From Polyangiaceae bacterium (lineage in GTDB: Bacteria > Myxococcota_A > Polyangia > Polyangiales > Polyangiaceae), in assembly GCA_025937835.1 (NCBI GenBank), contig JAICQO010000001.1, positions 1 to 64,000 of the forward strand: a stretch of 64,000 bases of DNA, written 5' to 3'. Of this stretch, positions 7,570-12,682 are shown piece by piece; positions within the stretch are counted from its first letter, which is position 1, and each line of letters starts with the position of its first letter. The translations under genes and the position numbers were made by a program. The notes under the pieces were generated by a model. The model ran no database searches, was not told the DNA's origin, and worked only from the letters and a program-made list of their open reading frames with translations.

Positions 7570-7729
7570 GCTGGCAAGCATCCTTACCTTGCCGCGCGCG
7601 GGGGCGCCTTTTGCCCTGAACTGAATCGTTTAAGCCGACCGGAAGAGATCTATGGGATTTCTTGGGCCAAAGTCTGGCGCCGCTGGAGAAAGCGCACGGC
7701 TGTGCCAGGCTCCGGTTCTCTCACGGGTC

Positions 7730-9955
7730 ATGCGCACTCCGATTCTTCGTTCTCTGAGTCTGTTGTTGGCGATCGGTTGTAGCTCCGACGGCGATCCCAG
7801 CGAGCCACCGCCCAGCGGCGCTAGAGGCGCTACCGGCGGAAGCAACTCCTCCATCACCGGTGGTGTAACGGGCAAGGGCGGGACGAGCGGCGGTACGCAA
7901 GCTTCGACTCCCACCGGTGGAGCGACATCCAAAGGCGGCGCGCCCGCCACGAACGGCGGCAACACCGTCATGGGCGGTAGCGGGGGCTCGGGCGGCGCGG
8001 CCAGCGGCGGAGCTCCGAGCGGCGCGACGGGCGGAGCCAAGAGCGCTGCGGGTGGCTCGGGGGGGATGACCATGGCTACGGGCGGCGCGGCTAGCGCGGG
8101 GGGTCCGAGCGGCGGCGCTGCGCCCACCGCGGGCGGCGGCGCGGGCGGGGGTTCGTCGAGCTGCGGCGCCAGCGGCTTTCATGTGAAAGACGGCAAGCTC
8201 CTCGACGTGAACTGTGAAGAGTTCGTGATGCGCGGCGTGAATTACCCGTACGCCTGGTTCTCGTCGCGGAACGCCGAGCAAGATCTGCAGGCCATCGCCG
8301 CGACGGGCGCAAACGCCGTTCGCCTCGTGCTGGCCACGGGCGGGCGCTGGACGAAGACCGCTCAAGGTACGCTGACGAGCTTGATCGGCTGGGCCAAGGC
8401 CGCAAAGCTCGTGTCGATCGTCGAGGTGCACGACACGACCGGGTACAGCGAACAGATGGGCTCGGTGGAGCTCGGCAACGCCACGAGCTACTGGACTGGC
8501 TCGGACATCGTCTCGGCCTTGAAGGGCCAAGAAGCCTTCGTGATCGTGAACATCGGCAACGAGCCGAACGGCAACAACACCTCGACGGATTGGGCGCCGA
8601 GCCACGTGACGGCTGTGCAGGCGCTACGCGCGGCCGGCCTCAATCACACCTTGATGGTCGACGCACCGAACTGGGGCCAGGACTGGGAAAACCGCATGCG
8701 CGACGGCGGCGGCTCCTCGATCTGGGACGCCGACGCGCAGAAGAATTTGGTCTTCTCCGTGCACATGTACGACGTGTACGGCTCGAGCTCGACCGTGACC
8801 AGTTACTTCAACAACTTCTTGATGAAGTACGACGCTCCACTGGTGGTCGGCGAATTCGCCGCCGACCACGGCTCCTCGGGCAACGTCGACGAAGACACGA
8901 TCATGTCGCTCGCCGAGAGTCTGAGCGTCGGTTACCTCGGCTGGTCGTGGGCCGGCAACGGCGACGGGCTCGGCTCGCTCGACATCACGAACAACTTCGA
9001 CTCGGGCAGCCTCACGACCTGGGGCACGCGCTTGATCCGGGGCATGAACGGGATCGAGGCGACGTCCGAGACCTGCACGTGCTTCGGGCTCGGCTCCCGC
9101 TACGCGGCTCGCTCCCGCCGCAAATCGGCTCCCGACGCCGAGCTCCAACGGGTGCTGGTGACGCAGCTCGGCTCGGAGGACGAAGCGATCGTGCGTGCGG
9201 CGCTCCCGACGGCGCGCGTGTCGCTCCTCACCGAGCCGCTCCAGGCCAGCGTCGTGAACGCGCTCGTCGGGCTTACGGGCAAGGACCAGCCGGTATCGCG
9301 CCGCGCTCTTGGGCTCGAGGCGTTGAACTATCTACGACCGGACCGGCGCAGTGGCGCTTTGTCGGCGTTTCAGGCAGCGCTCCACGCGGAAGAGCCGGAG
9401 CTCTTGTCGCTGGGCCTGCTCGCCTTGTCCCAGAGCAGACCGTCGGTCGACGCTGCCGACGAGGTAACGCGAGCGGCGCTCGGCGAGCGCGTCACTGCTC
9501 TGCTGGGGCATGGGAACCCGGGCGTGCGCGGGCGCGCGCTCCTGGTCTTGGCGGAGCTCCCAGCGCTCTCGTCCGAAAAAACGCGCTTCGAAGCCGCCTT
9601 GCACGCCCTGCTCGATCGCGAGCCCTACGTCTCTGCGCAAGCGGCGCATCTGTTGGCGCGAACCCGCAACGCCGCCGCGATCTACCGGTTGATCGAGCTG
9701 GTGCGCGACCTGCGGCCGGCGCGCTACGAGCTAGGGGGCAGCTCCGGCGTGATTATCCACGACCTGCCCGGGCGGCGGAGCGTGGCGGAAGCGGCGTTAT
9801 TTGCCGTCCAGTCGCTCGGCGAGCGCGTGAGCGGCGTCGAGCGACTCCCGCTCACGCTGCGCGATCGCTACACGGACGAGCGGCTCTTGCTCGAGAACGC
9901 GGACGCGGCCAAACGCTGGTACCTCCGCTTCGCCGCGCGTATTCCGAAAGAGTAG
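7730..9955 (+). CDS. GH5 glycoside hydrolase lipoprotein fused to a HEAT-like repeat region
   Basis: ATG 7730 gives MRTPILRSLSLLLAIGC, a lipoprotein signal; an in-frame upstream start at 7652 would bury it. Residues ~20-145 are a Gly/Ser/Thr/Ala tether. Residues ~146-450 are a GH5 (cellulase/mannanase) barrel: FHVKDGKLLDVN, MRGVNYPYAWF, NIGNEPNG with acid/base E278, and VVGEFAADH with nucleophile E375, closing with ETCTCF. From about residue 455 (DNA ~9080-9110) the protein turns into Leu/Ala/Glu-rich helical repeats (LGLLALSQSRPSVDAADEV, GHGNPGVRGRALLVLAELP), like HEAT/PBS repeats usual in cytoplasmic proteins. No linker separates the two. An ancient or recent deletion fusing two genes is the simplest reading. 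The glycosidase half looks intact and should be surface-exposed. Confidence 0.75.
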   Translation: MRTPILRSLSLLLAIGCSSDGDPSEPPPSGARGATGGSNSSITGGVTGKGGTSGGTQASTPTGGATSKGGAPATNGGNTVMGGSGGSGGAASGGAPSGATGGAKSAAGGSGGMTMATGGAASAGGPSGGAAPTAGGGAGGGSSSCGASGFHVKDGKLLDVNCEEFVMRGVNYPYAWFSSRNAEQDLQAIAATGANAVRLVLATGGRWTKTAQGTLTSLIGWAKAAKLVSIVEVHDTTGYSEQMGSVELGNATSYWTGSDIVSALKGQEAFVIVNIGNEPNGNNTSTDWAPSHVTAVQALRAAGLNHTLMVDAPNWGQDWENRMRDGGGSSIWDADAQKNLVFSVHMYDVYGSSSTVTSYFNNFLMKYDAPLVVGEFAADHGSSGNVDEDTIMSLAESLSVGYLGWSWAGNGDGLGSLDITNNFDSGSLTTWGTRLIRGMNGIEATSETCTCFGLGSRYAARSRRKSAPDAELQRVLVTQLGSEDEAIVRAALPTARVSLLTEPLQASVVNALVGLTGKDQPVSRRALGLEALNYLRPDRRSGALSAFQAALHAEEPELLSLGLLALSQSRPSVDAADEVTRAALGERVTALLGHGNPGVRGRALLVLAELPALSSEKTRFEAALHALLDREPYVSAQAAHLLARTRNAAAIYRLIELVRDLRPARYELGGSSGVIIHDLPGRRSVAEAALFAVQSLGERVSGVERLPLTLRDRYTDERLLLENADAAKRWYLRFAARIPKE

Positions 9956-10101
9956 CCGAGCTCGGCGGAGCGTGGCCGCGACGTGCCCGCCCTTGTCCGC
10001 AGGCGCTCCGTCGGAGCTGGCACAACCTGGCAGAGCATCCGAGCGCCTTTGGCCGGGTTTTCCGGCGGTCGGTCGGGCATAGCGTTTGCTTCTCGCTGCT
10101 C

Positions 10102-10829
10102 ATGCAATGGCGGGATCGGTGTGCCTGGTGCGTTGGATTGGGAGCTGCTTTGGTGAGCCTGGCGTGTGGACTCACGACGGATGGTGAGGACACCCCCGAG
10201 GCTCCTCCGGCCGCGCCCGGGCCCAAAGCTCCACCACAGACGGAGCCGCGGCCCCAGACGGCGCTCCCGGAACCCGAGATGCCGGAACCCGCGCCGGGGA
10301 GCGACGCGCCGAGCGAGGAGTCCTACGACGGCGCCCCGATTTGCGTGGAAAAGTCCCCCTTCGAAGAGATGCCTCCAGGATGCCCCCGAATCGACCGACA
10401 GCGGGCACCGAGTGTCCGCCGGAGTCCTCTGGAGCGCGTTGCCCCGGCGGCACGCAGAAGTTGGGGGAGCACTATCGCCAGACGGTGATGTACTGCGAGA
10501 GCTCCGTCTGGGTCGAGAGATCCCAGCCTTGTAGCAACGAATGCAGCGCGCGCGGGCCGAACGCCATCGATTTGCCCGACGACTGCGGATCGCGCCGGGT
10601 GGTCGACTGCAACGGCGAGTCCATGAGCTCGCTCCTCAACGCGGCGATCCACCGGTGTGAGATCGACGCTTTCGCCAATCAGATCCAGGTCGAGGTGGAA
10701 GACGGCTGTCCGCGTGTCGTCTCGTCCGACAAGGCCCTGAGCCGTTGTGCGATCGGCGCCTTGAGCTCGACGCGCTGGGAATGCGGCTCCGGATTTTCGT
10801 GCGAGAAAGCCAGTTTTCTATCGCTCTGA
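10102..10829 (+). pseudogene. Small Cys-containing lipoprotein gene with a frameshift in a C-run
   Basis: ATG 10102 starts a convincing lipoprotein (CAWCVGLGAALVSLAC, then a Pro/Glu-rich linker to APICVEKSPFEEMPPG). At CCCCC (10383-10387) this frame degenerates into basic nonsense, while the frame one base earlier continues as PNRPTAGTECPPESSG..CPGGTQKLGEHYRQTVMYCESS to TGA 10829. Adding one C to the run joins the two into a ~243-residue protein with regular Cys spacing. It is either a true one-base deletion or a sequencing error in the homopolymer. Function unknown; the Cys-rich exported style matches the gene at 2630-3784. Confidence 0.65.
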
Positions 10830-10834
10830 TTCGC

Positions 10835-12682
10835 TCACTCCCAAGCTTGAAGCTCGCCGTGGATCCACTCGGCGCGCTCGAGGAGGAAGTTCTTCAAGAT
10901 CGTGATTTCCGCTGCGTGACTGCCGCTCTCGGGTTGCAGGTCCCAGCGGTCGTAGTCGCGCTGAGCGGCGTCTCCGACGCGACTTGCGATTTCATCCACC
11001 AGATCGGCCAGCTCTTCGGGGGACAGCGTGGAGCCGAGCAGCGACAGGAAGCGGGCCTTGTAGCGCGCCCTGAACGATGGATCTTCGAAGAGCCGTAGCC
11101 AGGGACCCTGCCGGAAGTAGTCGGTGCCGTCGCTGCCCTCGAGGTACCAACCGCGGGCATCGGTAGCCCGTGCGTCGTACGGGGTGCCGAGGCTGCGATC
11201 GAAATCCCAGACGGGCCCGGCCACCAGCTTCTGCTCGCGGTCCTTGTGGAAGAACGTGCTGATGCGCAGGCCGTCGACGTTCTTGGTCAGGGCGTTGATC
11301 AGGTTGTGATCGACGAACGATTCGACGTCGATGTACTCGGAGTAGTGGCTGCCGGTCTCGGGGTTCGTGAAATCGGCAGCGTTCAGCGCGACGGCGTTGG
11401 CGCTCAGGTAGCCTTGGATGTAGTCGCGCTGAGCGGCGCGCGGCTCGTCGTCCATCACGTCGGAGTCCGGGTAGACGTATTGGAACGGCTGCCCGTCGAT
11501 GCCGAAGCTCGGGTCGCCCTTGTCGATGCTGAGGATGTAGCCGCCCGTGACGCCGGGTGGTGCGTTCTCGGACTCTTCGAGCTTGTCGATATCGACGCGC
11601 TCCTGGCCGCGCTTGATCTTCTCGATCACCGTATAGAAGCCGAGGTACTTGGCGAGCGTCACGGAGCCGCCGTCATCGACCAGAAAGGCTTCGGCGAAGC
11701 GCGTCCGCGGCGCGTAACGACCGATTCGGTTCGAGATCTCGAAGGAGACGGCGTTGCGGATCAGGCTGCGATCCATGATCACCGGATCGGAAAGCACCCA
11801 ATCCGCGTCGGCAGGCATGCCGAGCAGCGACAGGGCGCGGTCGTCGTCCCGGTCTTCCCGGCGCAGCTCGACGGCGTACTGTTTTTTCGGAAACGAGCGG
11901 GAGCTCTGGCCACGGACGTGGATGCCGATCGGCGTGTCGAGCTCGGCCTCCCCGAGCCACGACTCCCCGTCGGGGTTGGGCGCGAACACGGACAGCGTGG
12001 CCGCCACGTGCTCCGTGCCCATCGCATCGAGCTGGCCGGAGCCGAAGGTGTGTATCACGACGATCGGGAGGTGCGTGCTGAAGCTGCGCGCGTCCTCTTC
12101 TACCTTCAGGTAGGTGGCGCCGAGCACGGCGATCGGCTGTTCGACGCCGCGCAGGTAGGCGCTGGCGCGCACGCGCGTCGAACGTTCGATCAGGATCGGG
12201 TGTTCGAAGATCGGCGAGTCGAGGGTCGGCAGCGAGCCGTCGACCGTGTAGTGGATCTCGGCGTCCGGCTCGAGCGCGGACAGGCGCACTTCTGCGCTCG
12301 ACTCGAACGCCGACGCCGGAGGATCGAAGCGGATTTCCGCAGAAATGACCGGTGCCGCGCCGCCGGTGGGAGCCGCACCCCCGGTCGAAGCGCCGCCTTT
12401 GGGTGCGCCGCCGAAACTGCCGGCGCCGGCTTGTGAAGCGCCGCCGCTCGCTCGGCCACCCGCGCCACCTGCGCTGCCGGAACCGCCGGCACCTGCGGCA
12501 CCGCCGCGCGGGGCTCCGGCTGTGCCCGCGACGACGCCGTTACCTCCGTTGGCTGCGCCGGCCTGGTTTGCCGACCCGCCTTGCGTGAACAGGTCGCCCC
12601 CGGACGAACTGCTGGAACATGCCAGTTGAAGGGAAAGGACGGCGAGCCACTGCTTCGACCACGACCGAGCCGCCAAACGCAT
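10835..12682 (-). CDS. CotH-family lipoprotein with chitobiase-type C-terminal domain
   Basis: The 615-residue protein has a lipoprotein signal (WLAVLSLQLAC), a Gly/Ala tether of about 80 residues, a short beta-domain of the chitobiase/hexosaminidase C-terminal kind (EVRLSALEPDAEIHYTVDGSLPT), and a CotH kinase-like region. The CotH part shows GIHVRGQSSRSFPKKQYAVELR, ADWVLSDPVIMDRSLIRNAVSFEI, GFYTVIEKIKRG, and the family's terminal GPVWDFDRSLG. CotH of Bacillus phosphorylates spore-coat proteins; exported bacterial homologues with such tethers are widespread and mostly uncharacterised. It is likely surface-attached. It converges on the frameshifted gene upstream with stops 5 bp apart. Confidence 0.85.
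   Translation of the reverse strand: MRLAARSWSKQWLAVLSLQLACSSSSSGGDLFTQGGSANQAGAANGGNGVVAGTAGAPRGGAAGAGGSGSAGGAGGRASGGASQAGAGSFGGAPKGGASTGGAAPTGGAAPVISAEIRFDPPASAFESSAEVRLSALEPDAEIHYTVDGSLPTLDSPIFEHPILIERSTRVRASAYLRGVEQPIAVLGATYLKVEEDARSFSTHLPIVVIHTFGSGQLDAMGTEHVAATLSVFAPNPDGESWLGEAELDTPIGIHVRGQSSRSFPKKQYAVELRREDRDDDRALSLLGMPADADWVLSDPVIMDRSLIRNAVSFEISNRIGRYAPRTRFAEAFLVDDGGSVTLAKYLGFYTVIEKIKRGQERVDIDKLEESENAPPGVTGGYILSIDKGDPSFGIDGQPFQYVYPDSDVMDDEPRAAQRDYIQGYLSANAVALNAADFTNPETGSHYSEYIDVESFVDHNLINALTKNVDGLRISTFFHKDREQKLVAGPVWDFDRSLGTPYDARATDARGWYLEGSDGTDYFRQGPWLRLFEDPSFRARYKARFLSLLGSTLSPEELADLVDEIASRVGDAAQRDYDRWDLQPESGSHAAEITILKNFLLERAEWIHGELQAWE

Follow-up and report, generated by a model that had tools for sequence, protein, structure and literature searches.

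The GH5 half of the protein described here has its closest described counterpart in the beta-mannanase 1bqc, which is of the Thermomonospora/Thermobifida type usually placed in GH5_8, and in which E128 and E225 are the acid/base and nucleophile glutamates of catalysis. For the other half, the nearest described group is formed by the proteins of Pfam family HEAT_2 (PF13646). The two halves occur together, as separate neighboring genes, in the MAG ZC4RG46, a member of the Polyangiales from composting (PMC8434746). This genome (G004; contig C304 = QGUH01000532.1) belongs to the same genus as the genome studied here and served as our reference for the unfused state.

The window, i.e., the whole stretch of DNA that was analysed, comprises 64,000 nucleotides from a Polyangiaceae bacterium (assembly GCA_025937835.1; contig JAICQO010000001.1, positions 1 to 64,000). 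In it, both halves reside in a single open reading frame that has the following features:

7730..9955, + strand: fused open reading frame, 741 amino acids (open frame, sequence)
7730..7780, + strand: probable lipoprotein-type signal MRTPILRSLSLLLAIGC (sequence and pattern check)
7781..8149, + strand: Gly/Ser/Ala/Thr-rich low-complexity spacer (sequence)
8168..9085, + strand: GH5 beta-mannanase domain, residues 147-452 (PF00150 and 1bqc matches)
8561-8563 and 8852-8854, + strand: codons of the catalytic Glu residues (alignment to 1bqc E128, E225)
9083..9103, + strand: junction, consisting of F452 (9083-9085), 15 bp GGGCTCGGCTCCCGC and Y458 (9101-9103) (DNA alignment to ZC4RG46)
9101..9952, + strand: HEAT-repeat domain, residues 458-741, its N-terminus truncated relative to free-standing homologues and its C-terminus complete (homologue comparison, AlphaFold)

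Translation of the window shows that the 741 codons are open without a stop, junction included. The fused protein carries LLAIGC after a hydrophobic stretch and deviates from the strict PS51257-like pattern in a single residue, the Arg that occupies its first position; three of the four mannanase homologues conform to this pattern. We count the imperfect lipobox against the explanation favored below. An alternative in-frame ATG is present upstream at position 7652, with the purine-rich sequence GGAAGAG just 5' of it (window 7652-7732). The true start may be this codon instead of that at 7730, and a long n-region would then precede the signal.

Residues 147-453 match the beta-mannanase 1bqc end to end (302 residues, E 4.5e-90), and the PF00150 (Cellulase, GH5) score of 113.2 bits passes the curated cut-off of 23.5. 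The two proteins have the whole catalytic domain in common, including both catalytic glutamates, with E278 and E375 of the window protein aligned to E128 and E225; from its sequence, we infer a mannan-cutting activity for the GH5 domain. Unlike 1bqc, the window protein does not stop at the end of the domain but continues into a HEAT tail, and its N-terminus is of the lipoprotein type and followed by a Gly/Ser spacer. An earlier note on this DNA, made from the sequence alone, had taken ETCTCF as the point where free-standing enzymes normally end. This proved correct, since all four other complete close homologues terminate at the equivalent point (CSCFD, CSVFE, CRCFE, CSCFD), and ZC4RG46 does so as well (CTCFN-stop); their common end is a CxCF or CxVF motif followed by one residue.

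In ZC4RG46, the mannanase and HEAT genes have the same order and strand as the two halves of the fused frame, with identities of about 70% over the mannanase C-terminus and 50% over the HEAT part. There, however, the mannanase gene has its own stop and the HEAT gene its own start, with a hairpin in between: the mannanase ends with ...SDLCTCFN-TGA, and the HEAT gene starts 51 bp further on at a GTG codon on the same strand. The two frames are in register, separated by this one TGA alone, and the HEAT protein has its own hydrophobic N-terminus, which serves as its anchor in our comparison, and three additional N-terminal helices. The DNA of the window aligns with the ZC4RG46 mannanase gene up to CTCF and then again from Tyr117 of the HEAT protein; between these alignment blocks lie 405 bp in ZC4RG46 and 15 bp in the window, which is therefore shorter by a net 390 bp, equivalent to 130 codons. 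It lacks the stop codon of the mannanase gene, the hairpin between the genes, and the start, anchor and first ~116 residues of the HEAT protein, among them the long helices 53-70, 87-99 and 103-116 predicted by AlphaFold for the intact homologue. The intergenic hairpin of ZC4RG46 has a folding energy of -26.7 kcal/mol (z -2.5). Directly after the mannanase stop (L014:3520-3574, minus strand), a perfect inverted repeat with an 11-bp stem, CAGGGGCGCTC GT GAGCGCCCCTG, is found; it borders the stretch absent from the window.

The earlier note had proposed that a deletion joined two genes, and had held that the same fusion in many relatives would speak for a stable arrangement instead of a scar. 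Among 184 genomes of the order, nine of which possess the HEAT family (the window's own included), we found 0 others with the mannanase-HEAT fusion. The unfused tandem pair exists in a relative of the same genus, what is absent from the window is precisely the stretch that intervenes there, and the fusion occurs nowhere else in this set; we therefore consider it very probable that the mannanase and HEAT genes were joined in frame by a deletion, with about 390 bp lost in net terms against the sister genome. Two further points are counted against this explanation: the fusion is present in one genome only, and the ZC4RG46 contig ends within the mannanase gene, which places the export signal of that copy outside the data. 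A deletion via long direct repeats was not supported; the ends have only 5-bp words in common in ZC4RG46, which need not mirror the ancestral sequence of the window. A search of the window's own genome for the lost N-terminus of the HEAT protein did not recover it, the best match being an unrelated frame with E 0.02.

An assembler that dropped about 390 bp between two genes that are separate in reality would leave the same trace. Such an assembly or consensus error would suit a metagenome-type (MAG-like) assembly of 227 contigs, a fusion seen once, and short G+C-rich words that recur around the junction, and a strong hairpin such as that at the relative's site can disturb sequencing or assembly; the junction, however, is internal to a 162-kb contig, the join is exactly in frame, its ends share no words longer than 5 bp in ZC4RG46, and the missing segment is found nowhere else in the assembly. 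Moreover, gene order and strand match those of the sister genome, so that this is no chimera of unrelated contigs. We therefore regard an artefact of this type as improbable.

If the genes were joined by deletion, the ancestor would have possessed a gene for a GH5 mannanase lipoprotein beside a gene for a membrane-anchored HEAT-repeat protein. The deletion would have removed the mannanase stop, the hairpin, and the start, anchor and three helices of the HEAT protein, and, by comparison with the relative, have left the remainder of both genes intact. The chimera would be exported through the lipoprotein signal of the mannanase, whose catalytic domain would cut mannan while held on the Gly/Ser-rich spacer. 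The HEAT solenoid, once self-anchored and now part of the mannanase chain, would offer a protein- or polymer-binding surface outside of the cytoplasm. The two partners were probably functionally linked already before they were fused.

That the tail is HEAT-like, as the earlier note had read it, is supported by its relatives and by its predicted fold. The PF13646 score of the window tail (25.1 bits) is below the curated cut-off of 27.7, whereas relatives reach 45.8 and 63.3 bits. When the tail alone was used for a search, homologues with 50%, 41%, 27%, and 26% identity were recovered from four genomes of the same family; a single HEAT sequence as query over the genome contigs gave no match, and an alignment as query gave six loci. 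A profile search across the 184 genomes of the order found the family strongly represented in the nine genomes mentioned above. In every other genome where it was found, the family is free-standing, with a length of ~390-430 amino acids, and the N-termini that were read all feature either a lipobox or a hydrophobic anchor. Judged from these N-terminal sequences, the HEAT family is extracytoplasmic, its members being membrane-anchored proteins or lipoproteins, and in this it differs from the HEAT_2 proteins, with which it has the predicted helical solenoid in common. Homologues with their own start and an export-type N-terminus are thus present (the GTG start and hydrophobic N-terminus in ZC4RG46, a lipobox elsewhere), and the idea that the HEAT part suits a cytoplasmic protein does not hold. 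This removes the main reason for which the two halves had appeared mismatched, and corrects the notion that HEAT repeats need mean a cytoplasmic protein. Of the choice between a deletion scar and a new surface enzyme, the deletion stands, but the either/or is a false dichotomy; since both joined proteins were probably already outside of the cytoplasm, the fused product is possibly a working surface enzyme.

AlphaFold predicts the intact HEAT homologue of ZC4RG46 as a solenoid (mean pLDDT 84.8, core about 95) and the tail of the window protein as a helical solenoid from which the lost helices are missing (pLDDT 80-97 from residue ~470). Antiparallel helix pairs build up this predicted solenoid (AlphaFold, Foldseek). 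None of the solved structures that Foldseek retrieved with the HEAT model was close; the matches were HEAT/ARM solenoids of a generic kind, the best of them with TM values of about 0.4-0.5. At residues of about 440-467 the pLDDT is under 50; a flexible joint of ~20 residues between the GH5 and HEAT halves is therefore likelier than the direct, linker-free continuation that had been assumed. The GH5 half was modeled poorly, with one other mannanase row usable, and the model thus speaks to the fold of the tail, not to domain packing.

The window tail keeps 10 of the 11 positions that are invariant in all other family members and 28 of the 32 strongly conserved ones, as good a record as that of most free-standing homologues; no stop or frameshift interrupts its 285 codons, and the codon-position GC pattern is unbroken over the junction. 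These data run counter to the reading that the HEAT tail is a functionless passenger, the recent and harmless scar of a real fusion, which we consider rather unlikely, although the loss of three N-terminal helices and of the anchor would fit it. So would the lack of six residues in a predicted hairpin, a conserved loop kept by close relatives, and the Tajima relative-rate test of the HEAT part with outgroup G009 (44 versus 19 unique changes, window faster; chi2 9.9, significant), both of which we also count against our explanation. With the other outgroup the test was flat (26 versus 29). On decay of the tail, conservation was thus normal and the rate tests were mixed; the data are compatible with a working fusion and with a young fusion alike.

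In two genomes of another genus (G009 and G124), the mannanase and HEAT genes are likewise unfused neighbors, but in convergent orientation and with 117 and 209 bp between them, respectively. Together with the window and ZC4RG46, the pair is hence adjacent in four genomes, two genera and two orientations, tandem in one genus and convergent in the other (L013:6660-10619, L075:2340-5911, L014:2279-3979). No other open reading frames common to the four neighborhoods were found (E <1e-8), the contigs of G004 and G124 being short. Since adjacency is kept while orientation and the other neighbors found differ, the two proteins may have worked together before the fusion, as the gene arrangement suggests. 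A HEAT tail under selection because it lends the mannanase a binding or scaffolding module, and hence a stable new surface enzyme, would accord with this conserved adjacency and with the intact, confidently predicted fold; against it stand the restriction to one genome and the HEAT homologues without an adjoining mannanase (G013, G016, G112, and others). In G016 the two genes lie on separate contigs, while G013 has a HEAT gene without a mannanase and G046 a mannanase without a strong HEAT match. We entertain this reading tentatively; like the passenger tail, it is a sub-reading of the fusion, and the likelihoods given for both overlap with that of the deletion.

Downstream of the fused gene, positions 10098-10829 hold a small Cys-containing lipoprotein-like frame (MQWRDRCAWCVGLGAALVSLACG...) whose continuation apparently lies in a different frame from about 10340-10490 onward, which may reflect a frameshift or an error of sequencing. 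On the minus strand, positions 10835-12682 encode a CotH-type protein with chitobiase C-terminal/Fn3-associated domains, whose lipoprotein-like N-terminus and Gly-rich spacer give it a layout like that of the mannanase.

The fused protein unites known domains in a new way in a single genome; it is an isolated fusion and not a new kind of system. Literature searches for mannanases or GH5 enzymes combined with HEAT repeats returned nothing. The fusion provides a clear case in which the loss of a short segment turned two adjoining genes into one, the unfused state being documented by a relative of the same genus, and it suggests a role for the HEAT-repeat lipoprotein family in partnership with a surface mannanase. 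More speculatively, and with considerable doubt on our part, the mannanase and the HEAT lipoprotein might form a conserved two-protein module for mannan degradation at the surface of Polyangiales, for which the fusion, a surface mannanase with a HEAT binding tail, would be natural "Rosetta stone" evidence. The conserved mannanase-HEAT gene pair is a by-product of this analysis that is of more interest than the fusion itself.
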